Source of the DNA: Mytilus galloprovincialis
Taxonomy: Eukaryota; Mollusca; Bivalvia; Mytilida; Mytilidae
DNA length: 64,000 nt
NCBI RefSeq assembly: GCF_965363235.1
Contig: NC_134846.1
Span: 63,291,121-63,355,120 of the forward strand
Direction of reading: 5' to 3'
The position numbers were made by a program, and so were the translations under genes. Of the stretch, positions 22,801 through 63,813 are shown piece after piece. Numbering within the stretch: position 1 is the stretch's first letter; each line of letters begins with the position of its first letter. Under the pieces are notes generated by a model. It saw only the letters and a list, made by a program, of their open reading frames with translations, searched no databases and had not been told where the DNA came from.

Positions 22801-25800
22801 ATCATTTTTGCAATTTGAAGTTTCTCTTCATCGGTTATAAAAATTATCAACAAAATAAGCCAAAACGGAGTCAATTTGATAAAACATGTTTGTGGGTTGC
22901 ATCCAAGATTTCTGATAGAGAACAAAATTTAAACATGGTACCAATGATAAGTGTATTCCCTCTTACGTCTTCATTTGACAAAACTTACTTTCATGACGAA
23001 ATAGGAAGCAGACGAATAATATGAACAATGTCGTAAACAATCCTTAACGGATTTTACATTTCTTCCAGAATCAATAGGTGAATACTTTCTTCCACAACCT
23101 GTAAAATAAGGCATTAAATCATCATTTCTACAGTATGGTTTGACACAAGCATGACATTTAAAAATCTACAAAAACGAACCAGAGGCGTTAATGATTCTAT
23201 GTCGCTCACCGTGATCCACGATCATTTTCAACGATGGCCACTATCCAAAATCGTTGACTAAAATATACTTCTCGACGCAATTATTTTTGAACTTATCTTG
23301 ATGATCATTTTAGCTGCTTACATGTTTTCTTTATTTGCAATTGTTTCGGCTGAATGTGCAAACATTTAATAATAAAATTACCATTAAAACGACAGTAACT
23401 CATAAAATGAGTCAATTGACGATTTCTGTCATTGTGATATATATATAACTCGTCTAAACATCAACCCAAAAATGTTAGATCTGTAAATTTGCTTTCGCAA
23501 ATTTTTGTTCTTCCCTCGCTGGGATTCGAACCCATGCTACTGAGATATCATGTGATACCTTATCGCCTGCACTGCAGCCGTCCCGCTAGACCATACGACC
23601 ATCTGGGCTTCACATAATAATCAAGCTTTCGGTGGCCGTGTGTTACCTTTCCTCGTTAATTTTAATCTAGCGTCGTACTTCAGTACATGATATAATTTGC
23701 TGGTGATCCGATGGATAAATCTGTTGTAGAGTTGTCACTGACTCAGACGTACTTATAAATATAATTATTTTCTATGACTGTATCTTGCATTAATTTGTAG
23801 GATCCTTTACTATAGATAATTGAGCTGATCTGTAACAATACCATCTCCATGCCTTATATATCATGTACTGTAGTACGCCGCTAGATTAAAACTGACGAGG
23901 AAAGGTAACACACGGCAACCGAAAGCTTTATTATTATGTGAAGCCCCGGTGGTCGTGTGGTCTAGCGGGACGGCTGCAGTGCAGGCGATAAGGTATCACG
24001 ATATCTCAAAAAATGAAAAATGACGTCACATAGATAGATAGATAGATAGATAAATGACATCAAAAAATGAAAAATGACGTCACATTTGAATTAGTAAAAC
24101 AGATCATCAAAAAATGAAAAATGACGTCTCATTTGAATTAGTAAGATTATATTTGAACTAAATACTGATATTACATTTAATAACAATGCACATTTCAATA
24201 CTTATTAATAGCAAACTAAGGTAGCAATTAACTGTATTATATTGTATTGTCCGGTTTGTTTTGAATCTAACTTCAAACGTAAGTAAAACATTGTACAGAT
24301 TACGTTGAACAAAATCAAATCTAATAAATGAAGGCGGTGATTAATTTTCTTTACCATAACACATGAATATAATAGAAAAGACTTCAACACATTTGACAAA
24401 ATTACGATGAGAATTACAAAAATAACATTAAACATTTAAACTAAATACATGAATTTGGGATAGATAAGTACCGTAACACGTCTTATGGTAATGCGAATTC
24501 ACACTCAGCAAAACAGTCACAATCGGTAATAAGTCACGTTTGGTAATTACAGATTAGACGACGTAATGACAAACCACAATCTTCCATGTAATAAAAATGT
24601 CCTTAGCTAAGTATGGATCCACCAATTGGTGATGGTGTCCATAAAATTTACGGAGTGTCTATTTTAATCTGTCCTCCTCATAACTTTGTTGGAGCAGTTT
24701 CTACGTAAGGAGCACACTCCTGTATATAAAGTCCGTATAGTGTGAACAAGCACGAGAATAACGTATCAATTGTGATATGTAAACACCATACGAAGGGGCA
24801 GAGGGTATGTTTCTGCTGAGAAATGGGAAATTGATAATTGGGAAGTTGAAATCGTCCCGTTTATAATAGATTTTCGTGTGAAGTCGTCCATCTGCGTCAA
24901 TATTGAGGAAAAGATCAAGATATGAAGCAGTCCTTCTAGTATCGGTAGTATCCTTAATTTCAAGTTCACTGGGATATATGAGATGTAAGTATTGGCTGAA
25001 ATATGTGTTATTCAATGATAGAACATCATCAATATATCGGAAAGTAAAATTAAAGAATTTCGCAAGGTGCTTTTTCTTTTTGTCTTTTAGAAGGTTCTGA
25101 ATGAATTCTGCTTCATACGAGTACAAAAACAAATCGGCCAGCAGGGGTGCACAATAAGTACCCATTGGAATACCGACTGTCTGTTGAAATATAAATCCTC
25201 CAAACTCAACAAATATATTGTCGATCAAAAAGTCCAGCATTTTGATAATATCATCTTCAGTATACCTTCTGGAAAATTCAGTGTGATTCTTCACAAAATA
25301 TTATTATTGTAAACCAAAACAAGAAATTTGTATCTACGGTTCCCATTTTTATAGAAAAAAAGATCTGTTTTATGAGATGGTGAAGTCGATCTTTCAGCTG
25401 AGCATGGGGAATAGTAGTATATAGCGTAGAAAAATCAAAAGTTTTTATGTTGCTGCAAAATTGCAAAGATTGTGATCGAAGATTAAGCAGTAGATCTTTC
25501 GAATTTTTGAGAATCCACATCTGGTTAACACCACTGGAAGAATATATCTCATCACAATATTTTTGAAGCCCATCTTTAACTGTAGAAAGAATAGTAGTCA
25601 GTACTTTAGAAAGATGATTAGTCGAACATTTTGAAGACCCAGTTATGTATCATTCTTTATATGGAGTTTTGTGTAATTTACAACTTACAACTTACAACTC
25701 CCGTTAGCGCCATGTGTCGCATAGGGCGCGAATGGAAGCCTTCCATCTGAGTCTGTCTGCTGCTGCTTGTTGTGCTTCTCCCCATGTTCTCCATCCAAAC

Positions 25801-28800
25801 TCTGTTCTTTCCTTATCTACCATTCGTCTCCAAGTTTCTTTTGGTCTTCCTACATTTCTCTTTCCTGGTGGTGTCCATGTCAAGGCGATTCTACAATCAT
25901 TCCATGGGTCCATCCTCAGGATGTGACCTATCCAACTCCATCTCCTGATCTTAATGGTGTTGGTTATGCTGCACATGTTGGCTTTTTGTAGCAGTTCTGT
26001 GTTGGATATCGTAGTTGGCCAAAATATCTTAAAGATTCTACGCAAGTTCCTGGTGTTGAAGGTGTTAAGTCTATCTCCATCTCTCTTGCTTATCTTCCAA
26101 CATTCTGCCCCATATAGCAACACTGATATAACATTGCTTTTATAAATTTTCATTTTGGTGTTTCTACTGTATTGGTTTGATGTCCATATTTTTCTTAGCT
26201 TATAGTATGCTGCTCTTGCTTTTTTAATTCTATTCCTTATGTCGGCTGTTGCATTGTCGTTGGTATCTATGACCGATCCAAGGTATGTGAAGCTGTCTAC
26301 TATCTCTATTTCTTCGTTGTTCAATGTAATAGGCTGGATGTTGTTTGCCTTTACACACATTATTTTACTCTTTTTCTTGTTTATTTCTAAGCCAGTTGTT
26401 TTAGCTATCTTTTGTATATCATCTGTTTTAGCTTGCAGCTGTGTTCTTGTTGCTGATAGGAGAGCAATATCATCTGCAAAATCAAGATCTTCTAATACCT
26501 GTAGTCTTCCCCAGTTGATACCACGCTTTTTCTGTGTTGTTTGCTTCATTGTCCAATCTATAACCAGTAAGAAAAGGAATCCAGACATTACACAACCTTG
26601 TCTGACTCCTGATTTAATGTGGAACCATTCCGAATGTTTACCCTCATGTTCTACTACACAACTGAAGTTATCATAAAATGCTTGTACCATCCTGATTATT
26701 TTACCTGGGATTCCATAGTTTGCCATGATCTTTTTTAAGGTTTCTCGATGGATAGTGTCAAATGCTCTTCTGAAGTCGATGAAGTTGATAAATAGGGGGC
26801 TGTTCCATTCAATGCATTGTTCTATAATATTTCTAAGGATGAATATTTGGTTGATACAGCCTCGACCTCTTCGGAACCCAGCTTGTTCTTTACGTAGTAT
26901 GTTGTCAATAGCATCTTTAATTCTGTTGATGATGATTCTGCAGAGGACCTTCCCAGGTACAGATAGTAAGGTTATTCCTCTCCAGTTTTCACACTCTTCT
27001 AAATTTCCTTTTTTTGAGAGTTTGATTATAATTCCTTTTTGCCAGTCTGTTGGTATTTCTTCCCTGTTCCAAATTTTGGTAAATAAATGGCAAAAGACTT
27101 TTGCTATTGTGCCTACATCAGTTTTCAATAGTTCAGCTTGTATGTTGTCAATACCTGGAGCCTTACCATTACTGAGTGCCTTTATGCTCTTTATTATCTC
27201 TTCTATGGTTGGTGGTTCAATATTCATATCGACAACATCTGAAGGATGAATATCGGCTAGTACTGGTGGATCTTTCGCATTTAAAATCTCTTCAAAGTGT
27301 TCTTTCCATCTCTCTAACTGTTCCTTCTCGCTGGTTATAACATGTCCCTCTTTTGACTTTACAGGTCTGTTCCCTCTCATGCTGCTGTTGGAAATTTTCT
27401 TACTCAGCATATATAGCTTGTTCTGCTCTCCTCTATTTGCTGCCTCTTCTGCACTTTTTGCAATATTATCAATATATTTTCTCTTATCATCTCTGGTACT
27501 AAACTTTACCTCCTTGTTCTTATCCTTATAATCTTTCTCAAGCTTTTCTTTCTGTCTTTGTGATCTTGTAGCATTAATTTTTTGTTTTATCTGTTTACGT
27601 TCTTGTATTTTGTGGATACTGTTGGTAGTAATCCATTCTGGTTGTTTTCTGTCTTTAAATCCCAATGTTTGCTCACCAACCTCACATATTGCTTGTTTAA
27701 TATCTATCCACTGTTCTTCTATGCCTTCTGTTTCTCCCAATACCTGGAATCTGTTCCTTAACTCAAGTTTGAACTCTTGTGCAACTTTTGGTATCTTTAG
27801 CTTATCTGTGTCATATCTTTTCTTCTGTCCCTGATTTACTCTCTGTCTACAAAGTTTAAGCTTAACTCTGGATATAAGTAGTTCATGGTCACTACCAACA
27901 TCAGCACCTCTATATGACCGTACATCTTCCATAGATCCTCTAAACCTTTTGTCAATCGTGATGTGATCAATCTGATTCTTGATGTTTCCGTCTGGTGACG
28001 TCCATGTATATTTATGAATATCTTTATGTTGGAATATGCTGGAGCAAATTACAATGTTGTTAGTCTGACAATAATCCCGAAATAGTTCTCCGTTCTCATT
28101 GATAACACCATACCCATTCTTCCCCATTACATCTTCATATCCAACATTATCTGATCCTATCTTTGCATTCATGTCACCCATTACAATTATCATATCATGT
28201 TTATGAACTTTTGCTGTTACATCGTTCAAGGTTTGGTAGAATTCCTCTTTTACTTCATCAGAAGCGTCATTCGTTGGTGCATAACACTGTATTATGGTCA
28301 ACTTTATATGTCTAGAAAAAAATCGAGCTGTTATTATTCTTTCATTAATAGGTTGCCATTCCATGAGTGTTTTTCTGTTTGCTTTTGATATAATAAGTGC
28401 TACTCCATACTCATGTCTTTCTGTTTGTCCTGAGTATAGCATAGTCTCACCACCTCTGAGGTTGATCTTTCCTGTTCCGGTCCAGCGACATTCACTAATA
28501 CCCAATACATCAATTCCATAGTTGTTCATTTCATTTACTACCTGGTATGTCTTTCCAGGTGCATACATTGTTCTAACATTCCAGCATCCGACCTTGATCT
28601 GTTTTCTAGGGTGAACCAAAGGTTCTCTCCTGATGTTTGCTTCCAATTGATTCTGGGTTTGGCCAACATCATTCATTAAACCTTCTAACTGATTTCTGTT
28701 TTCTGGTCTCACCTCGGTATTTCCCATCAGAAAAGTCGTTCTTCCATTTCGCGTTTCTGTAACTTTAAAGTTTTTTACAAGGATAGGTTGTTGGCCTAAC

Positions 28801-31800
28801 GCTCAATCCCCAACCTGGAGAACCAGAGAATCTTTACTCAAGGTTTCTTTCCTATAGATCCATTGCCGACCAAGGCTGACGAGTCAAATCTACCCGGTAT
28901 TTTATATCAGAGTTTTCTTCTCCTATATGAATTGCCTTTCAAGGCTGACGACTTTCATCTAGCCGGCTATTAACCCATAACTGGGGCAAGGTTGATGAGT
29001 GCTAGGGCGTATCCACACGCCGGTGGGCCTACACACTTCATCTCTAGGGTCCTTGCTACTCCGAGATCCTCTACAGTAAGGCCTAGGACACAAGGTCCTA
29101 GTTACCGTGTGCTGTCGCGGGGAGGCACTGTAGAAGTCTTGTTAGTGTAGAGGCTATGTACTGGCAGGAAAGACTTACGCACTCGGCTTTCTTTTCACCT
29201 ATGAATATAAGCTATCCAGCGGCAGTTTAAGAGTCTATGACTCCCAACTGCACTAGGCGCATACACAAAATCAAAAAAAGAATAGTAGTCAGTACTTTAG
29301 AAAGATGATTAGTCGAACATTTTGAAGACCCAGTTATGTATCATTCTTTATATGGAGTTTTGTGTAATTTAGGTATCCAGTATAATGAAGGTAAGTTTTC
29401 TTCGTTTTCTTTGATGTTGATACCAAACGAAAGAAGGACAGATCTATGATTTTGTCAAATTTCGTCCTTGGTAAATGATGTTAAAGAATATGCAGGGTTA
29501 CCAGTAGTTTTATTTATTCCAAGCTCTGTTGTGAGACATTGCAAATAATGTTTTTCACATATGGAGACAATATTATTGGAGGCTTTATCTGCAGGAACAA
29601 CGACATATTTGTCATGCAAAGAGGATAAAGCATCCACAACATCCGGATTCTTGAAAGGGTTAGTAACTCTTGTACTCGCAGTCTTTGTATGCGCAATAGC
29701 TTTTATCCATTCAGACAAAGTGTCAAGTTCTGGTTTGTCTGGTTTACCCATTTTTTGCATAGTCCTTAACTGCATCCAACAGTAACTTGAAATTCTTTTT
29801 CCAGTTGATGGGCTGGGGATTCTTTATTTTGGTCCCTTGGCTAACAACTCTCTTAGTTGTTCATTGGTAACGATGCCAAGGTCACAAGTAATAACATGAC
29901 CAGCTGGACTATAATTGTATTGTGACGATGCACATGAGCAATCCGGAGGCTTGGATTTCGTATTTTTGAGGTTAAAAGCTTCTAAAACTCTCTTGTGGTT
30001 GAAAATTTTGGATGCAATAGACTTGGTATAAGTATAAGAAATAACAGGTGTAGCTTTATTTTTGAAGTAATCAGGTATAGTTTTTTGTACAGATTTTTGA
30101 TAAAATATATTGCTAATATTTACAGCATCTAAACCTTTATTGGCGAATTCTACCTTAAAAAAATAACGTTTTTCCTCACTATTGGATGTAGTCGATACGG
30201 GTTTGAATAGTTTATGGTTAGCAATGTCCATGATTATTGCAACTAATCTATACAAAACAGAACGAGAATCAGTAACGGAAATATTTTGGGCTTCTTGAAA
30301 TATTAAAGAAAGTTTTGACAGTGGAATTGAGTATAATTTAGTTCTAATATGATGAATTCTTAAAGGTTTTTGAACAGACGTTAATAGACTATCAATTGTC
30401 ACGGTGTGTACAGCAGGTGGTATATATTTTCTGTGACCATGACTTCTATTTCGTCGAGCAGAAGTATTAAATAATTGTAATGTATTGACGGTATTACACC
30501 TGGGACTAGACAAAATACCTACATCATCAATTTTGTCATTGCATCCATAGGGAATGGCTGTTCCCAACTCTCTTATCCAACAGTCTTCTCTTTGTAAACG
30601 ATATGGTGTACTCAATATGGAGTCATTTGTTGGATGATATATTTTCTCTATAATCCGGACTTTCATTGAAACAACAGAATGGCCAGGCTGATTGAAATGT
30701 TTATAGAGAAATTTGTTGTTATTATGATCATTTACATTAGACCGATGATCTTTCATTCTAAAATTGAGTTTTGTCGAGTTTCCCCGACATAGATCAATCT
30801 ACAAAGAGTACATTCAATACCGTATACAATATTGGAAGCGGTGCAATTCAAATTCTCATGACTATGTGTAATGTAATTTTTGGTGGTTAAATTACTATGA
30901 AAGTGGGTATCAGTTATTAGTATATCACAGGTTTTACAATTTTTACGGTTACATTTGAAAAAAAAGAGCAATATTCATGGTTGTCATTGAAATATAAAAT
31001 ATCTGAAAGTTGAACAGTACAGGACTGAATATATTCAAACTTGTCTGAATTTTTATAGTACAATGAGGATTCAGAAAACTGCACATGTGTCATATTCATA
31101 ACATCATTTAAGCTGGTCCTGGGGACACTTGATAAAATCGGTGTTGTTGTGTCCTTCACAACAGCCGATTGACACCTTTTTATCCTGGGCGTCGTATCAT
31201 CCAGTATAATATTTTTTGTTTTACTAGTTTTCATGCTGTTAGGCTACCGGACTGGTAGAATCCTACCAAAATAGATATTCTAACTTGGACTGGTATAGAA
31301 TTTAGGGATAATTACGTCCGGAGCTTGTGTACTAGTTTTCTTTCTACCAAATTTAACGGCGTCATGTGCATGCAATTCTGCTGACAACGATTATTTTCTA
31401 GCTTGTTTTCGTTTGATTAAGATGTTGTTGGTATCTATTCCCCTTGTAACGTCAAGAAATTGATAATCGATTGATAATGTTGTAAATACTTTCAATTGAT
31501 GATTTTATAAAAAAAAAAAATTAAATTACTGAATTTCAATTCAATTAAATTTTAATAGTCATTTAGAATTTCTATATATAAAAGGAAAGGAATCAAGGTA
31601 AGTTTGTTCTTTGCGTTAATAAAACAGCAAACCAACAACTTCAAGTAAAACAAAACAGAATATCACATTGGATGAAGAAACGCAGAATGAAAAGCGTTTG
31701 GGTAACATTACTTTCCAGAAACCACTAAGAATGTTTAACAATTTTATGGGAAAATAGTAAAACCAATATAGCGGTGAGGATATTTATCAGAATGATCTAA

Positions 31801-44654: not shown

Positions 44655-44905
44655 GACCTTCTAAAATTCAAACTGACCTTTATTCCGTGCGTTCATCGTG
44701 TATCGTGCGTGTTGCGTGCGTGCGTGCATCGTGCGTGTATCGTGCGTGTACCAATCGTGCGTTCATCATTCATCGTTCCGTGTATTTTCCGTGTAACGTG
44801 CGTGCATCGTGTATTCTTAATCGTGTAGCGTGCGTTCATCAATCTTTCATTCTTAACCGTGTATCGTGCGTTCGTCAATCGTGTATAATTGTGTATATCA
44901 GGGGT
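44655..44905. repeat. CGTGCGT-rich minisatellite
   Basis: Repeated words CGTGCGT, TCATCGTGTAT and TCGTGCGTGTA run from 44690 to 44895. The left flank CTTCTAAAATTCAAACTGAC reappears, inverted, at the right end of a similar array at 59636-59842. Short open frames within it are repeat artefacts. Confidence 0.7.
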
Positions 44906-45069
44906 TGAAGTCATAAAACTTTGATCAGTGCTCGGAGCATAAAAATCATGCTCGAAACATGAAATCCAGCATTTTGATTGGTTGATTTTCGAGTACGAGT
45001 ACAAAAAACTGACTCGAAAGTTTTATGACCGCAAGGCCAGATAACGTGCATTTGTCAAACTTTCATCTC

Positions 45070-45246
45070 TAATGGAATTTAAGTTAATAGACTTAAATTC
45101 AGTTATCGCTGGGGCCTCTGTCAGATAGTGTTTCCTTTTTTAGCTTTACCAATATGAGTGACGTAATATTCTGTGACGTAATTAAGTCTTTTACAGAAAT
45201 TCCAAGGAAGCAAGCTGTAAATTTGTATTGTTAGCGGAAAATTTGT
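45070..45246 (+). repeat. Ngaro split repeat A1
   Basis: Identical to A2. Just inside its outer edge lies a dyad, GAATTTAAGT - TAATAG - ACTTAAATTC (45075-45100), with 10-base perfect arms and a 6-base spacer, the form expected for a tyrosine-recombinase core site. Two TGACGTAA motifs (45159-45166, 45174-45181) resemble CREB/ATF sites and could act as promoter elements. Confidence 0.9.
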
Positions 45247-46427
45247 TAAAAACTATCTTTAATTCTAAAGTAGGGTTTGTATGGTATTGTTGATGTGTTT
45301 CACTGCATCTAATATCGTTTAGCATTGAATTTCATTATAAAGTTTGGTTTCTTTTACCAATTTTGGATATTCCAAATTATCGCCACGTGGCGAACACATG
45401 CGACTAAGGCATGATATAAATCTATTCTTCGTCTTACATTGTTATTTTATTTTAGCAATATAACTTACGAATTATGATATTGTTCAAAGTTTTTCAAATG
45501 AATAATATTGATATCGTCCTTTATGTCTTATTTATTTAAATTATAATTCATTCACGTATTTAAATTAGAATTCACGTAGTTAGACTGGCATGGTACCGTG
45601 TGAACGTGTTACACATGTTTGACGATGAGTTAAAACAATTGTTTTTATATTAGGTTTAGCTCGTAAAGAACGGCTGTGTGATTTAATACGCTGTTACAGA
45701 TAAGTAACGTTATAGTTTTCGCAACTAGATCATTGAAACATATCATTATATAGCAGGAGACATGCGTTTTTGATGGGCCCCTGCATGTTCATTAAGTTTT
45801 CATTAAAAGGTAGCCATCGTTATATGTATTCAGATCTTATATATATATATATATAGAAAAAGTAATAATATCACTACAAAAGATATTTACGGACCACGTG
45901 CGTAGGGACGTACACGGCTATGGGGCGAAAGGACGTTCCCAATTTGGGGCGAATGGACCTTTTTAAACCGGAAGTGAAACTCTCGATACAAACAAACTTA
46001 GTTTGAAACTTGGAATCTTACACAGAGACAGATAGATAGCAGTAACTCAAATCGTTACGTAAAATGATCATAGAATGGGTTTAGAGTATACCAATTATAG
46101 TTAAGTACCCTACTGTTTTCGCGTGTTTCTACACCAGAACATCATTCAGATCACTTGATCGGAAAACTGATTGATTCAATGATTGATTGTTGGTTGTTTA
46201 CGCCGCTCTTGTCCGAGGGTCGGTATACATATAAGAGTACAATGTATGGTTGAGATAAATCACAAAACATACTAAAATGTCAACAAGTTACCGGTCACAG
46301 CTAAAATATTTTGTAATTGTGATTATTATTTTGCTTTAACATTAAATTGTGAATTGATTTTGTTAAGCTATTACTAAAATGTGATAATGAAACACTTGTT
46401 AAGATTTACTCTTTGAGTTGTAGCACA
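45247..46427 (+). promoter_or_regulatory. Ngaro leader with a palindromic E-box
   Basis: Untranslated leader between A1 and the gag ATG. TCGCCACGTGGCGA (45380-45393) is a perfect 14-base palindrome centred on the E-box CACGTG. GGGGCGAAAGGAC and GGGGCGAATGGAC form a short direct repeat near 45920-45960. There is a (TA)n run near 45840. Confidence 0.5.
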
Positions 46428-47582
46428 ATGTTGAGAAGAACAGCAAGGAAACGTAAAGCAAAGGGACAGGAAATTACTCTCCCGAGGAACGCCACTACAA
46501 GGGCCGAAATACTTGCAACAGGACACCAGACACAGACATCCATGACAAGGCCACCAACATTTTCGACAGCTATGTCTACATCTGGACCTATCCCTTACAC
46601 AACCAACGTAGGATCTGTCACATCACTACATTTAGGTGCCAATGATGCAACTGCTAGCCAACAGAGCTCCACATCAGCAGATACACACACTGTGTCAAGC
46701 CACACACACCTCACAGACAATAACGTACCCATGCAAAATGCAGGTAATCAGTTTATTAACTTGACACCTACATGTTCATCCAATACTAGTATACCACAAA
46801 TGTATATCCCACAGCAAATATACGGGGTAAATACTGATATTGCAATAAATGTACCACAAAATATAAAAGACAAAATTTATAAAAGTGAATATATAGATTT
46901 GGCTGTTTTATTAGCACAAAACATGACATCAGATTCAAACACGCAAAAGTTAGTGGTACAAAATGGGCAATTTGTCATGCAGTCTGCTCCAAACCTGTCA
47001 AAAATCTTTGGTATTGAGGTATGGACATCCGCCTTTATAATATTTACAAGCATTTATTGCAATCTTCATCCTGGAAGATTTCAGGAGTTGCTCAAATACA
47101 TGAGTACAATACGTTTAGGTGCCAAGCGTTGTAATAATTTAGGTTGGAAGCATTATGATGAACAATTTCGTTTGCGTAAAGCCTTCGACCCTACTGGTTC
47201 CTGGGCTACAGTTGATTCTGAATTATGGTTGATATACATTAATGGTAGTACGGAGAACAAAAATGGTAGTACTTCAGTTAACTTGAACACAGTGTCTAAC
47301 TTGAAATGTTATACTTTTAATTATGAGGGTAGTTGTTTTAAACAATCTTGTTTTTATAAGCATGTTTGCATGCGTTGTGGTGCAGGTCATCCTGTTATAA
47401 CCTGCCCAAATGGGCAGACATTGGCTTTGCATAATCAAAGACCTACTTATGCTAATCCAAGATTCAGGTCACCTAGACCTCAAAGCAGATATAATTTTTC
47501 ATTTAGGCAACCTGGTTCAAACCCACGACAGAGACCTGCTAACGCTTTTATGGGACATGGGGCATACCCCCATAAGAATTAA
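46428..47582 (+). CDS. Ngaro Gag-like protein
   Basis: 384 residues from ATG 46428. The N terminus is basic (RRTARKRKAKG), followed by a Thr/Ser-rich low-complexity part, then a capsid-like region (ILATGHQT, IFGIEVWTSAFIIF, GRFQELLKYM) and, near the C terminus, CYTFNYEGSCFKQSCFYKH (CX8CX4CX3H) plus CMRCGAGHPVITC (CX2CX3HX4C), zinc motifs typical of DIRS/Ngaro Gag. The tail is Arg/Pro-rich. The pol frame overlaps it by 170 bases in the +1 frame. It would coat the element RNA. Confidence 0.85.
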   Translation: MLRRTARKRKAKGQEITLPRNATTRAEILATGHQTQTSMTRPPTFSTAMSTSGPIPYTTNVGSVTSLHLGANDATASQQSSTSADTHTVSSHTHLTDNNVPMQNAGNQFINLTPTCSSNTSIPQMYIPQQIYGVNTDIAINVPQNIKDKIYKSEYIDLAVLLAQNMTSDSNTQKLVVQNGQFVMQSAPNLSKIFGIEVWTSAFIIFTSIYCNLHPGRFQELLKYMSTIRLGAKRCNNLGWKHYDEQFRLRKAFDPTGSWATVDSELWLIYINGSTENKNGSTSVNLNTVSNLKCYTFNYEGSCFKQSCFYKHVCMRCGAGHPVITCPNGQTLALHNQRPTYANPRFRSPRPQSRYNFSFRQPGSNPRQRPANAFMGHGAYPHKN

Positions 47583-49164
47583 ATGTTTAGAAGCTTGTTT
47601 GGTAAGTTACCCTGACAAAGTGGTTGCTGCTGAAATTTTATTTGGTTTTTCTCATGGTTTCAGACTCCAGTATACAGGCCCTCGCATTCATTCTTTTTCA
47701 AAAAATTTAATTTCAGCTGTACAAAATAGTGATGCAGTTTTACACAAGTTGCAAGATGAGGTGAAGCGTGGTAGAATGTTAGGGCCTTTCAAAGTTATGC
47801 CCATTTCAACCCTCCGTATAAATCCTATAGGTCTTGTGCCTAAATCAGACAGTAGTTGGAGACTTATAACAAATTTATCGTTCCCGCCAGGTGAAAGTGT
47901 AAATTCATATATTGATCAAGTATATTGCAAGGTGAATTACACTTCTTTAGACACTATTTTAGAAAAAATTTATGAATGCGGTTTGTCATCAGAACTGGCT
48001 AGAATTGATGTTAAGTCAGCTTTTCGGAATTTGATAGTAAATCCTGCTGATTTTGATTTGCTTGGAATTAAATTCAATGACCACTTTTACATCGACAAAT
48101 CTCTTCCTTTTGGATGTTCTATATCGTGTAATTTATTTGAAAAGTTTGCAACGTTCCTTCAGTGGCTTGTTGAAGAACGTAGTAAGTTACATTCAGTTGA
48201 TCATTACTTAGATGACTTTATTTTTATTGGTGCCAAATCAACTGGCCATTGTGGTATTTTAATGGAAGCTTTTAGCAAGGTTTGTAATGAATTGGGGGTT
48301 CCTATTGCAGAAAACAAAACAATTGGACCTGATACAGTCATCCCCTTTTTGGGTTTTGTAATTGATACTGTTCGTATGATGGTTATTATTCCCCAAGAGA
48401 AATTGGAAAAACTGCAGTCTGAGTTGAGTTCTTTATTGCAGAAGAAAAAGATAATGTTGAGAGAGCTGGAATCTATCACAGGTTTAATGTCTTTTTGTTC
48501 AAGGGCAATTCCTTCTTCCCGTGCTTTTATACGTAGGTTTTATGATCTCATTGCATCAGTCAAGTGTAAAAAGCATCACTATAAGGTTAGATTAAATAAA
48601 GAGGTTAAAGCTGACGCTATGCTTTGGTTACAATTTTTAAACATTTTTAATGGTCAGTGTTTTTTCCCTGAAAGAGTTTGGTCATCAAATGATATTCTAC
48701 AGCTTTTCACAGATAGTTCTGGCAATCAATATTTAGGTTGTGGAGCTTTCTTTAATGGTAAGTGGTCTCAGTTTAAGTGGCCTCAAATTTGGTGTTCATC
48801 ACCCATATTGAAAAATTTGGCTTTGCTTGAGTTGATTCCTGTTATTCTTGCTTTGTATTTATGGGGGAAATTGTTGCGTAATAAGAAAATTCGCTTCAAT
48901 ATAGACAACTTAGCTCTAGTGAGTATAGTTAACAAGAGAACTTCTAAGGACAAGCAAATAATGAATCTTATTCGTCCCCTGGTGTTGTTAACCATGCTTA
49001 ATAACTCTCAGTTTACTGCTGTGCATATAAAGGGTTCTGAGAATAAAATAGCCGATGCCATTTCTCGTTTTCAGATGGATCGTTTCAGATGTTTGGCCCC
49101 AACAGCAGATATTTACCCTGCTCCAATTCCACTGGAATTTATGAATGTTATTTTAGACCTTTAG
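47410..49164 (+). CDS. Ngaro reverse transcriptase-RNase H
   Basis: Open from 47410, though roughly the first 50 codons overlap gag and the conserved part starts near PIRIKCLEACLVSYPD, so expression probably needs a frameshift in the overlap. RT motifs: WRLITNLSFPPG, ARIDVKSAFRNL (motif A Asp), SLPFGCSISCNLFEKF, HYLDDFIFIG (YLDD catalytic pair, about residue 265) and LGFVID. RNase H follows with LFTDSSGNQYLGCGAFF, ELIPVILAL, FNIDNLALVSIVN and GSENKIADAISRF, keeping the acidic residues. Residue order fits DIRS-order RT-RH. It overlaps the recombinase frame by 76 bases. Confidence 0.9.
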   Translation: MGRHWLCIIKDLLMLIQDSGHLDLKADIIFHLGNLVQTHDRDLLTLLWDMGHTPIRIKCLEACLVSYPDKVVAAEILFGFSHGFRLQYTGPRIHSFSKNLISAVQNSDAVLHKLQDEVKRGRMLGPFKVMPISTLRINPIGLVPKSDSSWRLITNLSFPPGESVNSYIDQVYCKVNYTSLDTILEKIYECGLSSELARIDVKSAFRNLIVNPADFDLLGIKFNDHFYIDKSLPFGCSISCNLFEKFATFLQWLVEERSKLHSVDHYLDDFIFIGAKSTGHCGILMEAFSKVCNELGVPIAENKTIGPDTVIPFLGFVIDTVRMMVIIPQEKLEKLQSELSSLLQKKKIMLRELESITGLMSFCSRAIPSSRAFIRRFYDLIASVKCKKHHYKVRLNKEVKADAMLWLQFLNIFNGQCFFPERVWSSNDILQLFTDSSGNQYLGCGAFFNGKWSQFKWPQIWCSSPILKNLALLELIPVILALYLWGKLLRNKKIRFNIDNLALVSIVNKRTSKDKQIMNLIRPLVLLTMLNNSQFTAVHIKGSENKIADAISRFQMDRFRCLAPTADIYPAPIPLEFMNVILDL

Positions 49165-50042
49165 TAAGCAGTTTGATTGAAAGTTCCATAGCACCCAGTA
49201 CATTGCAGATATACCAAAGAGGGCAAGCACTTTTTTATGAGTTTAGATCTCTCTATGGTTTAATGAATATGTGGCCTATTCCTCTTTGTGAGTTGTTAAG
49301 TTTTATTGCTTACTTGTTCAAGAAAAAATTAGCGCATTCAACTATTAATTGTTACGTTACTGGACTGGGATTTTTTAGTAAGGCAAACAATTATGAGGAC
49401 ATTACACAAAAATTTGTAGTTCGGAAGCTGTTAGAAGGTATAAAACGCTCAAGGCCTAAGAAAAATGATTTACGTTTACCAATAACCAGAGATATGCTGA
49501 AATCTATTATTTTTTCTTTAGATTGTGTTTGTAAAAGTCGCTTTGAATTAAGTTTATTTAAAGCTGCCTTTTCACTAGCTTTTCATGGTTTATTTAGGGT
49601 AGGAGAATTGGTTGTTACTAATAGTTTACAGAGCCATACATTACAGTTATCAGACATACATATTTTAAGTGGTTTGCTTCAGGTGTGCATTCCTTCTTCC
49701 AAAACAGACCAGTTGGGTAAAGGTTCAAACATTTGGATTTATCCTCAGTCAGATTTGAACATTTGTCCTGTTAATTTGGTTAGCGAGTTTATTAAGTTGA
49801 GACCCCCAGTTTTAGGTCCTCTTTTTTGTCATTTTGATGGTAGTCCTTTATCTAGGTATCAGTTTGTGAGTTTATTAAAAAAGGCTATTGATTTGTCTGG
49901 TATTGATCAAACTAGATATAGTTCCCATTCTTTTCGTATTGGTGCAGCAACCACCTTGTCAATGGATGGGGTATCAGATAGTGAAATAATGCGGTTGGGT
50001 CGCTGGAGTTCCAATGCTTACAAGGGTTACATAAGAATTTAG
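49089..50042 (+). CDS. Ngaro tyrosine recombinase
   Basis: 317 residues if started at 49089; the first ~25 overlap RT-RH. The conserved part starts near LVSSLIESSIAPSTLQIYQR (core-binding domain). The catalytic domain has FHGLFRVGEL (Arg I), SSKTDQLGKG (Lys), HSFRIGAAT (His-x-x-Arg), LGRWSSNAYK (Trp) and GYIRI with the nucleophilic Tyr close to the C terminus. The set of catalytic residues is complete. It inserts circular DNA without a target duplication. The stop is TAG at 50040-50042. Confidence 0.9.
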   Translation: MFGPNSRYLPCSNSTGIYECYFRPLVSSLIESSIAPSTLQIYQRGQALFYEFRSLYGLMNMWPIPLCELLSFIAYLFKKKLAHSTINCYVTGLGFFSKANNYEDITQKFVVRKLLEGIKRSRPKKNDLRLPITRDMLKSIIFSLDCVCKSRFELSLFKAAFSLAFHGLFRVGELVVTNSLQSHTLQLSDIHILSGLLQVCIPSSKTDQLGKGSNIWIYPQSDLNICPVNLVSEFIKLRPPVLGPLFCHFDGSPLSRYQFVSLLKKAIDLSGIDQTRYSSHSFRIGAATTLSMDGVSDSEIMRLGRWSSNAYKGYIRI

Positions 50043-50065
50043 TATCATTTATTTGCCTTAAGTAG

Positions 50066-50698
50066 TTGATTGTATTTGTATTATATATAGGTATTGTAGG
50101 TGATCCTGTAAATGTCTGGATAGTAGGATCATCTATAGTCAAGCACGCTTTTGTGACAGCTCGTGATCGGCCTGGTGGGGTAAACTTAGGTCTAGGTCGA
50201 TTGAATGCCTCATTTTGGTGGCAAGGCAAGGGTGGCATGATAGTGAGGCATGTTAAAGCTCAGCTAAGAACAATGAAAAAATATGAGGATCCACCACAAT
50301 TTTTATTATTACATGTAGGGGGTAATGACTTGGGTAATTCCAAAGTGGGGTTTTTGCGTAACGAAATAAAGAACATGATTCGATGGATAATGAAGGAGTT
50401 TCCCACCTCTAAGTTGGTATGGTCTCAAATTTTGACCAGGTTGAAATGGCGTTATTCTAATGACCACAAAGCAATGGACTTGTGTCGCTATAGGATAAAC
50501 AACTCTATTGCCGCCTTTATAGTTAGCTGTGGGGGTTACTACGTTAAACATCCAGATATTCATGCAGATCAAAAATTTTTTCAATCGGATGGTGTCCACT
50601 TGTCATCCTTAGGAAATGAATTGTGGCTGAACGTATTACAGGGTGCAATGGAACATTTTATTCAAAACAAGGACTGTGCTTCCACTTTTCCTTGTTAG
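50066..50698 (+). CDS. SGNH-hydrolase-like protein of the Ngaro element
   Basis: The frame opens at 50066 just after a stop, and the first in-frame ATG comes only after the nucleophile block, so it is not a free-standing gene. Blocks: VNVWIVGSSIVK (Ser in GSS, residues 21-23 counted from the opening), WWQGKGGM (block II Gly), LLLHVGGNDLG (GxND, 85-88) and QSDGVHLSSLG (Asp175/His178). The Ser-Asp-His triad is complete. Such hydrolase frames are known in some Ngaro elements and in some LINE ORF1 proteins; their role is not settled. A 65-base GT-AG intron (50026-50090) would fuse it in frame to the recombinase. Confidence 0.85.
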   Translation: MIVFVLYIGIVGDPVNVWIVGSSIVKHAFVTARDRPGGVNLGLGRLNASFWWQGKGGMIVRHVKAQLRTMKKYEDPPQFLLLHVGGNDLGNSKVGFLRNEIKNMIRWIMKEFPTSKLVWSQILTRLKWRYSNDHKAMDLCRYRINNSIAAFIVSCGGYYVKHPDIHADQKFFQSDGVHLSSLGNELWLNVLQGAMEHFIQNKDCASTFPC

Positions 50699-50699
50699 T

Positions 50700-50935
50700 T
50701 ATATATTATAGGATATACAAATAAAGTTACAATCATTACATGTATATGATATACAATTATAGTTACAATCAATATATGATATGCAAATATAGTACATCAA
50801 TATATGATATACAATTACAGATACTATTAATTTAGAATATACTTATACAGATACTATCATATATGTTATACACATACGTTACAACCTATATATGATATAA
50901 TAATACAGATACAATCATCTATATGTATATAGGAC
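50700..50935. repeat. Degenerate ATATGATATACAAT tandem repeat
   Basis: About seven imperfect units of 30-36 bases containing ATATGATATACAA and TTACAATCA or GATACTAT lie directly after the hydrolase stop. They belong to the Ngaro 3' untranslated part. Confidence 0.65.
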
Positions 50936-51060
50936 TTGTTGTTGTTTTGGTTAATTTTGTATGTTTCTTTTACTTGTGTTTGTAAATATTTTTCCATACA
51001 ATTGTTCGATAAAATCAAGAGATTATCTATCATAATTATCTGGTTCACAGCTTTGCAGCG

Positions 51061-51082
51061 AACCGCCCTTTTTATGGCGGTT
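51061..51082. repeat. Hairpin before Ngaro B1
   Basis: AACCGCC and GGCGGTT enclose CTTTTTAT. A 7-base GC-rich stem in otherwise AT-rich DNA, 30 bases before B1. It may serve as an RNA signal. Confidence 0.5.
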
Positions 51083-51111
51083 GACAGAGTCTCTGTTTTC
51101 CTCCGTCAATG

Positions 51112-51444
51112 TGGCAGAATTCGCTGCATAGAATCTTAATTTTAACTATGACATTTTAGGTTTTTGGATAATACAGACTACACTTGTGTATCCCACGGTG
51201 TTTTCTAAATTTGAAGCACCCGTGTATCCCACGGTGCACCTTTACATTTTAATATATCTATCTATCTATCTATCTACAAGGTTGCCATATTATCTTCGGG
51301 TAACCAATCATTTATCTATCTACATATACATCTATCTATCTACATATATATATATTATATGAATCTATATTATGAATAAAAGCTGTGGCCAGATATCGCC
51401 AATCCATATATGCATTTTGTTTTAATGGCACCATCTGAGATAAT
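51112..51444 (+). repeat. Ngaro split repeat B1
   Basis: 333 bases containing CCCACGGTG twice, a (TCTA)n tract and GTGGCCAGATATCGCC. It joins A2 at TAAT (51441-51444), which both repeats share. Confidence 0.9.
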
Positions 51445-51617
51445 GGAATTTAAGTTAATAGACTTAAATTCAGTTATCGCTGGGGCCTCTGTCAGATAGT
51501 GTTTCCTTTTTTAGCTTTACCAATATGAGTGACGTAATATTCTGTGACGTAATTAAGTCTTTTACAGAAATTCCAAGGAAGCAAGCTGTAAATTTGTATT
51601 GTTAGCGGAAAATTTGT
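51441..51617 (+). repeat. Ngaro split repeat A2
   Basis: Identical to A1 (45070-45246), including the dyad (51446-51471) and both TGACGTAA motifs. It is followed by 172 bases unique to the junction (51618-51789) before B2. Confidence 0.92.
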
Positions 51618-51789
51618 AACCCGCCCTCCCACTCCTTTTTGTGTGAGATACTGCTCTTTTGCATTTATTTTTCAGGTTTCTGTCCGTGGCAGTGGTAATC
51701 CAGTTTAGACAAGGATGATCTTGACTCGTTTGCTGTTCAGACTAAAGACTTTATTTGAACTTTAAGCCTCATAAATAGATTCCCGTAAA

Positions 51790-52118
51790 TGGCAGAATTC
51801 GCTGCATAGAATCTTAATTTTAACTATGACATTTTAGGTTTTTGGATAATACAGACTACACTTGTGTATCCCACGGTGTTTTCTAAATTTGAAGCACCCG
51901 TGTATCCCACGGTGCACCTTTACATTTTAATATATCTATCTATCTATCTACAAGGTTGCCATATTATCTTCGGGTAACCAATCATTTATCTATCTACATA
52001 TACATCTATCTATCTACATATATATATATTATATGAATCTATATTATGAATAAAAGCAGTGGCCAGATATCGCCAATCCATATATGCATTTTGTTTTAAT
52101 GGCACCATCTGAGATAAT
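51790..52118 (+). repeat. Ngaro split repeat B2
   Basis: 329 bases; one TCTA unit shorter than B1 and CAGTGG in place of CTGTGG. It ends GAGATAAT, the outer right edge of the element. Confidence 0.9.
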
Positions 52119-54380: not shown

Positions 54381-55474
54381 GTAGTGCGCCCGTATGTCAG
54401 AAGGAAATCTGATTTGTATGGGTTTTTTTTCGAGTATACATACCACCCGTTGTCACTTTCACCTGACGTACAAATCACACATTGTTATTACGGCCGTTAT
54501 TTCCACCTGGACACAGGACTTATATAATATATATATTACGTAATAATAACGGATATAGTAAAGTCGAAAAAGCGAGACTAAGCGATCCTACATTCCGTCG
54601 GCGTCGGCGGCGTCTACAAATATTCACTCTGTGGTTAAAGTTTTTGATATTTTAATGACCGTTTCTTAAACTATCCTGGAACTCTATTAAACTTGGACAA
54701 AAGCTTTATTATTCTTGCTTCTACATGTAGCGTTACTTAATTTGTTCCTTTAATGAGATCATCATTTACCATTATACAATGATATGAATAGTTTGTGGAC
54801 CCGTATGTATTAAGGGAATGATACTCAATCGTACGTATAAAAACAAATCTTTCGTGTATTTCCCATTTCACAGTCCTACATGTATATTGAATTTTACTCA
54901 CAACTCAGTAAGTTGATACCAGCGCGGGGTACATGTATGCTTAAACCTCTTATTCTAGATGTCAGGTAACTTTCTTGTGTTTATGTTCATATGTTGGATT
55001 GCTGTCTGATTGACGAATACCCGTCATTTTATATATTTAGATTTTTTTAAATTTGTTTTTTAGGGATGCACCCAGTTGCACCTTTTCATTTAAGATATAT
55101 TTCCGTGACGTAACCTCGAAAGATTAGTCACATCACTAAAACAATAAGGGAAATGAAACTTCTTCTCGCATGTTGCACTTTCGGTAATAATTCTCTTCGA
55201 CAAAATACTGCCTTGAACTCAATTTTGGTATAAATATAAAGAAGCCACAATTTGGTTCTGAAATGGATATTTTTGTAAACACTAAAAGCTAGGTATCCCT
55301 TAATTGATATAGGCTCTTAAATTCGGCAATGTTTAGAGACAGTGCTAGGGCTGTAAGCAAGTCAAGGTCGCTAAACTCTCATTATCCGTTTAGAGATTTT
55401 CTGAAAATACAATGGCTTTTGCCTTATTCGAAACTAAAACATTAGCAAATATAACTGGTAGCCTTCGGTTGTCA

Positions 55475-56396: not shown

Positions 56397-56607
56397 AACT
56401 AAAAATACTATTTACAATTGTCAGTTCAAAATACATTTAAGAAGTCAGTGCGTTGCTACATGTTATATTCTACTGAATTTACTATATCCGTTATTATTAC
56501 GTAATATATATATTATATAAGTCTTGTGTCCAGGTGGAAATAACGGCCGTAATAACAATGTGTGATTTGTACGTCAGGTGAAAGTGACAACGGGAGGTAT
56601 GTATACT

Positions 56608-60486: not shown

Positions 60487-63400
60487 TCATTTACATGTAT
60501 CACTACCACATTGTTTATTGGGCACTTTTGCTGTCTTTTCTAGCAGTTTCAGTCTCATTAAATATAGTTGATGACATAACACACTTGATAACTTTGTAAT
60601 AGCATTTTGTTGATCCACACTAAAATATTTGCTAAAATTTGTACAGTCTAAAATTAGCAGAAGAATCGCATCTTTGTTTCATAGCTCGGACCACTTGCTT
60701 TCACCAATCACATTGATAACCTCTATTTTGAGACGGTTATAATATATTTGTCTAGTTGAAAATAAGGCGGGACAATCAAGAATGATGTGCATTAGATCTT
60801 CGGAATATATTGTGCACAGTTTACAAATCTGATCTGAATGTTCTACTAGTATGTTGTACTTGTGTTTGATAACTTGTGTCATAAATGTTCCAGTAAGCAT
60901 TCTTGCTTTTGTAATGCCCATTTTAACCTCAGATACCATAGAACGCAACGATTTCCATATTATATGGGGCTTTCCAACAGCCAAATCTTTTGTATTGATA
61001 TATTTCAGAGTTGATTTTTTGACAGACTCAGCCACTAATATATTAGTCCATGTTTTCTGGATTGCACTTTTACATTGATGTTTGAACGCTAATTTTGAAG
61101 GTTGTTCTGCCATTAGAGTATAAATTTTCGGCAACTTGTACTGTTCAAGAATATCCTGTATTCGACCAAAAAAGCTTTCTTGATTTTCACCGTTTACAGC
61201 CAATTGTCTCATCATGAGGTTCTTCAGAGTAGAGTTATTACAGGAGATAATGTTATATAGAAGGCTTAAAAACCACTGCTTTGGTCTTTTTGGGGTGAAT
61301 TGAAACTCTGTTTTGCACAGCATGTCTATGTAAGGTTTATAACATACATTGTAGTTCGTTTGGATTTGAGGACAAGAGAGCGATATCGTCCGCACATGTA
61401 GGACATCCAAGATAAACATTGCCCATCCTGAAACCTAGTCTTGTTTCCTGTAATTCCATCAGTAAATTGTTGTTATAAATTTTATACAGTAATGGAGACA
61501 AAATTCCACCTTGTCTCACTCCCTGTAGTATATTAAATTTCGGACTTATTGCACCGGCCCATCTGACTTTTGAGGTCATACCATCATATAGATCTCTAAC
61601 GATTGTCCAAATTTTAGGGTGGACACCTATTTAATACAACTTATCCAAAACAATTACATGGCTGACAACATCAAACGCTTTCATACTATCAACAGTGATG
61701 AGACATAATGGAATTAATGGTGTAAGTTTGCTTTCGCATTTTGCTTCGGAGACTATTAGTGCTGCTAAGATCATGGAAACTCCTTTCGTGAAACCAAATT
61801 GAAGTGGACTCTGTTTGTTATCAAAATGTTTTTCAATTTTTGGTAATAACACACATTCAAAAAGTTTGGTAAAGACCGGCGATACAGTTATACCTCTATA
61901 ATTATCCAGAATCGACGGATCTTTCAGTTTTTTCAAAATTGGTGTAAGTATTCCAGACTTTAATATTTCTGGAAAGCTACCGAAGCTTAAAATAGAATTA
62001 AATGTTGTTGTGATACTTGGTAACAAAATGTCCCCAGAGGCTTTCAATTGTTCTGAACATATCTCAAATTCATCAGTAGCTTTACCAGTATGTAAATGTT
62101 TTATGCCATTTTGAATTTCCATTTCTGTAAATGGTTCCAGCGGGTCATCAGCGCTATTACAAAATTCAGTTATGAGTTTATGACGGATAGTGCAGAGCTC
62201 AAGATATTTTTCATCATACCCATTGTCCTTTGGGATTCCTAAATCTTCAAAATATTTCAGAAAACATTCTCTCTGTTCGTCTGGGTCATTCACTTCAGTG
62301 TTGCCCTCTTGTAAATAAGGTGTTTTAACGACTGACTTTCCTCTGTTCCTTCGAATTAAGCGGTGGAACAATTCAGTGGTAGGATTTTCCATAATTTGAT
62401 TATAGAGATCTTGCCTGTCTGTATACTTTTCCAAACGGAATTGACGACGAAGCTCTCTTTGAGCAGTAATTTTTTGTTGTTTAAGTGGGCCCTCTGGCTT
62501 TCCTTTTTCGCACCACTCTCTGTACAATTTGTGACAGTTAGTTATCAACATTCTCGCTGCTGGTGAGGCCTTCCACTTTGGGCCTTTAAGATAGATAATC
62601 TTCCTTGGCGTTGATGCTTTTGTGGCTTTTTGCAAGATTGACATTAATATTTCAATAGTTGGATCTGAGCTTATTTTGCTACAACTGTTTTCAAGTTCAA
62701 GACGAAGAGTGTTCTGAAAAGTATGAATATCCATTTTCTTCCATTGATAATTCCAAATTGCTGAAGACTGTTGGCTTGGTCTTTGAATTGAGGCAAAGCT
62801 TATGTTAATGACAGCAGACACAATGGTATGGCTAGAGAGATTTGTGGCATGCTTTTCATGAATAATGTAGTCCTGTATCAGATCTTTGTGTGAAGACAAG
62901 ATGTAATCAATTTGTGAAGATCCAGCCCCGGAGTGTTGCATAAATGTGTGTTTTGTTGCTGCTGACACAATAAGTTTGTGGTCTCTAACAAACGAATGGA
63001 TGCACACGTCATGTTTACTACCAGCCCTAGGCTTTAGAAGTGTTCCGTTCAGGTCACCGGCTATTACAATTCTATGGGTATCACTATAGTTGTTTATTAT
63101 AAAATCTAAAATATCGAGACATTCTCCGTATTCCACAACAGAGTTGACCGACGCATTGTTCGTTGGGAGGTATACGCAAATAAGACATATCTTTGGATCT
63201 GAGTTGATTAAAATGCCAATGATTCTTTCATTTCCTTCATCAATTTTAGTGACTTTACCAGAAATTGAAGACGACCATACAATTCCTACACCCCCTTTCC
63301 CTCTTGGCAAGTTGAATCCAGAAATCTGTTCATAGGTGTCTGAACAACGAACAAAAGATACTTTATCTTGGAAGAATTTGTCGAAATTATGCACTTGAAA

Positions 63401-63507
63401 GTCATAGAGCCAATGCTCTTGAATACATATGATATCATAATTTGAGCCCAAAAAGTCTGAGAAGGCAGAATTTGATGAGATGCCTTCGATGTTACATGTT
63501 GCTAATT
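60487..63507 (-). pseudogene. LINE ORF2 relic (endonuclease-reverse transcriptase)
   Basis: The minus strand is open from 63451 upstream of IICIQEHWLYDF (endonuclease Glu), with NERIIGILI, VIAGDLNGTLL (GDxN), SSQIDYILS and LSSHTIVSA. RT: ATDEFEICSEQLKASG, LDNYRGITVSPVFTKLFE, QFGFTKGVSM and VDSMKAFDVVSH (motif A). A TAA at about 61630 interrupts DKLY/IGVHPKIW in frame. Then GVRQGGILSPLLY and CADDIALLS (motif C). A TAA near 61337 follows, and the region after motif C appears shortened: the frame jumps near 61265 to the C-terminal part (LMMRQLAVNGENQESFFGRI, CKLCTIYSEDLMHIILDC). A TGA at 60679 and the last stop near 60487 end it. It is inactive. Confidence 0.85.
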
Positions 63508-63813
63508 TTAATCCCGATTTGAGATCACTTCCTCTATAAGTAGGAGTTCTGGCGGTTTCTTGCGAGACAGGGTTGTTTCTAAAAAATGGTTGGAAGCATT
63601 AGTTTGGTCTTTTCCTGAGTTGCAAGTGTTTGTGTGCACATTGGCTTCAACAATAATTACCTCCCTTTGATTATTATCATGAATTGAGAATGAGTTGTGT
63701 ATATCAGCTTCAACAGTAATTACCTCCCTTTGATTATTATCATGAATTGAGAATGAGTTGAGTATATCAGGCTTGTGAGTTTCATCCTGCATGTTTTCTT
63801 GCAGTGTTAACAA
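63508..63813 (-). pseudogene. Upstream frame of the LINE relic with a 21-residue repeat
   Basis: A 101-codon frame ends just before, and in a different frame from, the endonuclease start (the ORF2 frame reads LKSGLKLATCNIEG across its stop). It contains SFSIHDNNQREV twice. It is probably the end of ORF1 or the N-terminal extension of ORF2; the family's ORF1 was not recognised. Confidence 0.5.
63644..63769. repeat. In-frame 63-base tandem duplication
   Basis: GCTTCAACAATAATTACCTC through to GAGTTG and TATATCA (63644-63706) is repeated at 63707-63769 with few changes. The period is 21 codons, so the frame is kept. Confidence 0.8.

Follow-up and report, generated by a model that had tools for sequence, protein, structure and literature searches.

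Structure of the element and its repeats

At positions 45070-52118, the 64,000-nucleotide stretch of Mytilus galloprovincialis DNA analyzed here (the window) holds an element of 7,049 bp, for which a repeat finder recovered the order A1-[ORFs]-B1-A2-B2 and whose interior is occupied by a Gag-like frame, a frame combining reverse transcriptase (RT) and RNase H (RH), a tyrosine recombinase (YR), and an SGNH (GDSL-type) hydrolase frame (Table 1). An earlier note on this DNA had described an apparently intact Ngaro element, a description that both the structure and the domains uphold. The coordinates and the complete identity that it gave for A1 and A2 were reproduced exactly, and B1 and B2 are nearly equal, as it had also stated: they differ by one substitution and by one 4-bp unit of a TATC microsatellite, which is extra in B1. 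Its label of "textbook" split repeats needs qualifying as to the spacing, since A2 and B2 are separated by unique sequence.

Table 1. Features of the element, with positions in the window
Feature	Position	Strand	Remarks
A1 repeat, left end	45070-45246	+	Starts with TAAT; 177/177 identity to A2
TAAT, left end	45070-45073		Also at the B1/A2 junction (51441-51444) and at the right end (52115-52118)
10-6-10 perfect inverted repeat in A1 (thus in A2)	45075-45100		Spacer TAATAG; candidate binding site of the recombinase or an accessory factor
Gag-like frame	46413-47582	+	389 aa from first TTG; 384 aa from ATG 46428; 409 codons between stops, counted from 46353
Zinc-finger region, Gag-like frame	47307-47405	+	Motif
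RT + RNase H frame	47410-49164	+	Pfam, chain alignment, motifs
Tyrosine recombinase	49089-50042	+	317 aa; Pfam Phage_integrase, Cre alignment, motifs
SGNH (GDSL-type) hydrolase frame	50066-50698	+	210 codons; Pfam, PDB match, motifs
B1 repeat	51112-51444	+	333 nt; AATAAA at 51375
A2 repeat	51441-51617	+	Overlap with B1 is TAAT at 51441-51444
Unique stretch, A2-B2 interval	51618-51789		172 nt
B2 repeat, right end	51790-52118	+	329 nt; AATAAA at 52049; last bases TAAT

The left junction reads ...TTTCATCTC-TAAT-GGAATTT, the internal B1/A2 junction ...CATCTGAGA-TAAT-GGAATTT, and the right junction ...CATCTGAGA-TAAT-TGTGTAACG. That TAAT is common to all three repeat junctions would fit crossover within a short stretch of identity, and the empty site is predicted to read TCAAACTTTCATCTC-TAAT-TGTGTAACGTTCATA. 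With 575 copies of TAAT in the window, the tetranucleotide does not make a strong target signal. We also considered and rejected a resemblance of the target flanks to the element ends beyond TAAT: among 552 other TAAT sites, 66 scored at least as high as the left flank and 280 at least as high as the right, in a comparison that excluded sites close to the left end or to the window ends and those in or close to the 3' repeats. A search with the end motifs of the element found no exact match outside the known repeats, and neither blastn with the element nor tblastn with its four proteins detected a second copy elsewhere in the window. In the window as a whole, no Rfam match reached the gathering thresholds.

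The perfect inverted repeat in A begins one base past the shared TAAT (A starts TAATG), and its spacer, too, starts with TAAT. Among 500 A sequences simulated with a first-order Markov model, 3 contained a perfect inverted repeat whose arms measured at least 10 bp and whose loop was no longer than 12. In B, perfect inverted repeats of at least 8 bp are absent, and the whole window holds 23 with arms of at least 9 and loops no longer than 12 when nested versions are counted separately. Sites of tyrosine recombinases are described as typically having arms of 11 to 13 bp and spacers of 6 to 8 bp (PMC3212892); as a putative recombinase-binding site, the A palindrome is for us a lead only. Each A repeat further carries two copies of the motif TGACGTAA. 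The AATAAA of B2 starts 69 nt upstream of the final base of that repeat; since five further AATAAA sites lie in the element besides those of B1 and B2, this is a weak signal by itself.

Coding capacity

The four stop-free frames follow one another on the plus strand with 409, 587, 331, and 210 codons. When 200 sequences simulated from the element with a second-order Markov model were read in six frames, their longest stop-free runs had a median of 106 and a maximum of 176 codons. The earlier claim of four open frames with catalytic residues is borne out by motifs in their places and partly also by alignments with Cre and with RT/RNase H chains. The Gag-like and RT frames overlap by 173 nt, and the RT and YR frames by 76 nt. 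No methyltransferase (MT) family was found by Pfam in any of the four frames at E-values up to 0.1. The Gag-like frame had no Pfam match; its zinc-finger patterns are C-x8-C-x4-C-x3-H and C-x2-C-x3-H-x4-C.

The RT domain matched Pfam RVT_1 above the cut-off (2.4e-9) and has its YLDD motif at 48205. RNase H was weak in Pfam (RVT_3, 0.016, below the cut-off), but the D-E-D-D motifs are present, and the RT/RNase H chain 4ol8 aligned with residues 71-496 of the 527-residue query (1.7e-4); the Ty3-G Gag-Pol chain 7q5b matched this frame as well (4.8e-4). Coding likely starts near ATG 47557, which lies 23 nt ahead of the stop of the Gag-like frame (47580-47582), a position that would suit reinitiation after that frame. 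Just 31 residues remain after the last RNase H motif, too few for an MT there.

Downstream of RT/RH and on the same strand, the recombinase frame contains R, HxxR, and Tyr. It matched Pfam Phage_integrase above the cut-off (5.7e-9), and the alignment with Cre covers its residues 265-316 of 317 (0.0036). We take the Cre-aligned H, R, W, and Y to play the roles that they have in Cre, and the FRVGEL Arg and the SKTDQ Lys presumably do likewise. The frame stops three residues past the catalytic Tyr (codon 50028-50030), whereas the matched Cre chains continue.

The SGNH frame opens after the stop at 50063-50065 and does not overlap the recombinase frame. Its catalytic blocks are GSS (Ser block, 50120), GGND (50318), and DGVH (50588). 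Lipase_GDSL_2 matched with an E-value of 1.4e-5, but with 26.1 bits against a curated cut-off of 32.9, and the sole PDB match at E-values up to 1 was 4c1b, "ORF1-encoded protein" (7.7e-5), which we take to be the ORF1 esterase domain of an L2-type LINE from zebrafish. The first ATG sits beyond the catalytic Ser block, a second detail that qualifies the label "textbook". A splice fusion of recombinase and SGNH as a route to an active recombinase was rejected: with donors between 49980 and 50065, acceptors up to about 50135, and a minimum intron length of about 40 nt, 16 GT-AG pairs leave the frame open, and all of them delete the catalytic Tyr. A spliced RNA that produces SGNH alone is possible. 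Single-sequence structure predictions were too poor for use, with a mean pLDDT of 35.8 for the recombinase and 38.6 for SGNH.

Neighboring features in the window

Other repeats and sequences resembling mobile elements lie around the element. A LINE-like element with one stop-free frame of 1,032 codons (25704-28802, minus strand), encoding endonuclease and RT, and an ACAACTT-type simple repeat at its end is flanked by a perfect 95-bp direct repeat (25586-25680 and 29277-29371). This looks like a recent insertion with a long target-site duplication; 95 bp is unusually long for a LINE. The minus-strand frames on its two sides (24701-25649 and 29455-30798) resemble a single retroelement gene that was interrupted, by eye a Penelope-like one, and four pieces scanned from the frames flanking the LINE gave no Pfam match at E-values up to 0.001. 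Near the right window edge, another LINE frame of the endonuclease type spans 655 codons, also on the minus strand (61631-63598). The region 15219-15822 holds four close copies of a 93-nt unit, three of them 87-99% identical to the reference copy, and the 142-nt arms at 15219-15360 and 15681-15822 are 99% complementary. Inverted repeats of 133 nt at 54433-54565 and 56475-56607 (98% complementary, 1.9 kb apart) are possible DNA transposon ends. Finally, a 27-nt imperfect inverted repeat pair (81%) at 44896-45043, on the left side of the element and 26 bp from the insertion, may represent a small MITE-like element, a second copy of which was not found in the window.

Age of the insertion

The repeats differ by one substitution in 502 compared positions, a divergence of 0.2% (Poisson 95% interval, 0.005-1.1%; 4-bp indel excluded). 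The published model, as described in PMC6681497, implies that the repeats are near-identical at insertion. If so, a divergence of this size means that the insertion is recent, and on this basis the insertion is probably young. Part of the repeat identity could be an effect of assembly or conversion. Given open frames and near-identical repeats, activity of the element, which the earlier note had suggested, is plausible.

Interpretation of the element

We are highly confident that the tyrosine-recombinase retrotransposon at this locus is Ngaro-like, structurally complete, and recently inserted. The Ngaro-like class is assigned by structure and by domains predicted from the DNA: a split repeat plan, RT and RNase H in one frame, a downstream YR, and no MT, all as in Ngaro-like elements, as well as an SGNH frame after YR, which some Ngaro-like lineages have and which is not required. 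DIRS1-like membership was rejected, with none of the four inverted pairs of at least 25 nt joining both ends and no MT, and so was PAT-like membership, where the split direct repeats agree but an MT was not found. A PAT-like element might nevertheless have lost its methyltransferase and converged on the Ngaro plan. Split direct repeats are common to PAT-like elements, an MT loss has been proposed for a C. briggsae Pat1 lineage (PMC4157794), and the overlapping frames seen here are said to be unusual in Ngaro (PMC3266345). We nonetheless regard such an origin as highly improbable: an SGNH frame after the recombinase has been described for amphibian Ngaro (PMC9210276), and the 31 residues behind the last RNase H motif leave no space for an MT there.

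Whether a Ngaro-like copy of this kind still moves is a separate matter. The copy may look intact and yet be immobile, either because expression of its recombinase or SGNH is defective or because it is silenced, and we hold this to be a real possibility, though one we lean against. The recombinase that ends three residues past its Tyr where the matched Cre chains run on, the SGNH frame without an ATG before the Ser block, and the loss of Tyr in every open-frame fusion pair all point that way. On the other hand, the core catalytic motifs are retained, the near-identical repeats argue for recent mobility of the lineage, and SGNH may come from splicing elsewhere or from a non-ATG start, or may be dispensable. 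The repeats might instead owe their identity to gene conversion or assembly, the insertion being older than it appears. This reading, which gains from the fact that one assembly underlies the analysis, strikes us as quite unlikely, because the two differences between B1 and B2 speak against a plain assembler duplication and the four frames are still open.

For a young Ngaro-like retrotransposon, the circle model known for Ngaro from the literature can be fitted to the present sequence. Transcription from a promoter used inside A1 would end near the poly(A) signal of B2 and yield an RNA without the outermost ends. RT/RNase H would copy this RNA and, by template switching, the internal B1-TAAT-A2 would template the missing B-A junction, giving rise to a closed circle. 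The recombinase would then join the TAAT junction of the circle to a target TAAT, placing A1 on the left and B2 on the right with no net target duplication. In a more specific version, which we consider unlikely, the A palindrome may be where the recombinase binds, crossover being shifted to the adjoining TAAT, and SGNH may be made only from spliced or non-ATG-started RNA. If this were true, the locus would offer a young element allowing biochemical tests of Ngaro integration.

Comparison with known elements

The element belongs to a known superfamily, of which it is a well-preserved example, and the find leaves the known range of element kinds unchanged. Its value is that a young copy with every expected part makes a useful reference for the host and could reasonably serve to test the circle-and-recombine model of Ngaro transposition, which is still inferred. 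Ngaro has been reported in molluscs among other animals (PMC4157794, PMC10294476, PMC8905726). The statement of the earlier note that complete copies are uncommon survives in part. Tyrosine-recombinase elements are described as rare relative to other transposable elements (PMC4157794), and mollusc Ngaro as present "in low copy number" (PMC10294476), but X. tropicalis is listed with 7 potentially active copies and X. laevis with 13 (PMC9210276), and four Cafeteria strains have 80 annotated elements (PMC8547959). For Lottia, 53 instances are given (PMC4157794), and a hard clam table lists 1,741 and 1,801 Ngaro annotations (PMC8905726), neither passage stating the share of complete ones.

Searches of collections of viruses and prokaryotes, which say little about animals, brought no confirmed relative, be it with the RT, YR, SGNH, and Gag queries against viral contigs or with the RT query against genome contigs; tblastn of RT/RH against phages, of equally little bearing on animals, gave no match. 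The PHROGs matches were confined to RT and integrase families of a general kind, a family of unknown function that the recombinase matched, and a weak one for SGNH.

With DIRS1-like elements, the present element shares RT plus YR, and its TAAT may correspond to the short junction sequence proposed for them as the crossover without target duplication (PMC3266345). The integration model for DIRS1-like elements has a 3-bp circular junction and no target duplication, and their termini are often NTT, with ATT the most frequent (PMC3266345). They differ in their inverted terminal repeats, internal complementary regions, and MT (PMC3266345), in place of which split direct repeats and SGNH are found here. 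Published Ngaro elements are organized as A1-[ORFs]-B1A2B2, their frames being Gag-like, RT/RH, and YR (PMC8547959), and those described in three sources are without MT (PMC4157794, PMC9210276, PMC8547959). The Ngaro of Cafeteria burkhardae has this same plan and the same three frames, its YR with HxxR and Tyr, but its host is a protist and the word "hydrolase" is absent from the main text of the paper (PMC8547959).

In the Xenopus Ngaro-like elements DIRS-53_XT / DIRS-54_XT, the repeats have other sizes (A 236 and B 152 bp [PMC9210276], versus A 177 and B 329-333 here), and whereas all frames of Xenopus Ngaro reportedly overlap (PMC9210276), the YR and SGNH frames described here do not. Ngaro frames are elsewhere said usually not to overlap (PMC3266345); the two overlaps of the present element agree with Xenopus Ngaro (PMC9210276) and not with that statement. 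Compared by description, DIRS-53_XT and DIRS-54_XT from Xenopus carry Gag-like, RT/RH, YR, and SGNH frames as this element does, and DIRS-53_XT also has split direct repeats, both pairs of which are 100% identical (PMC9210276).
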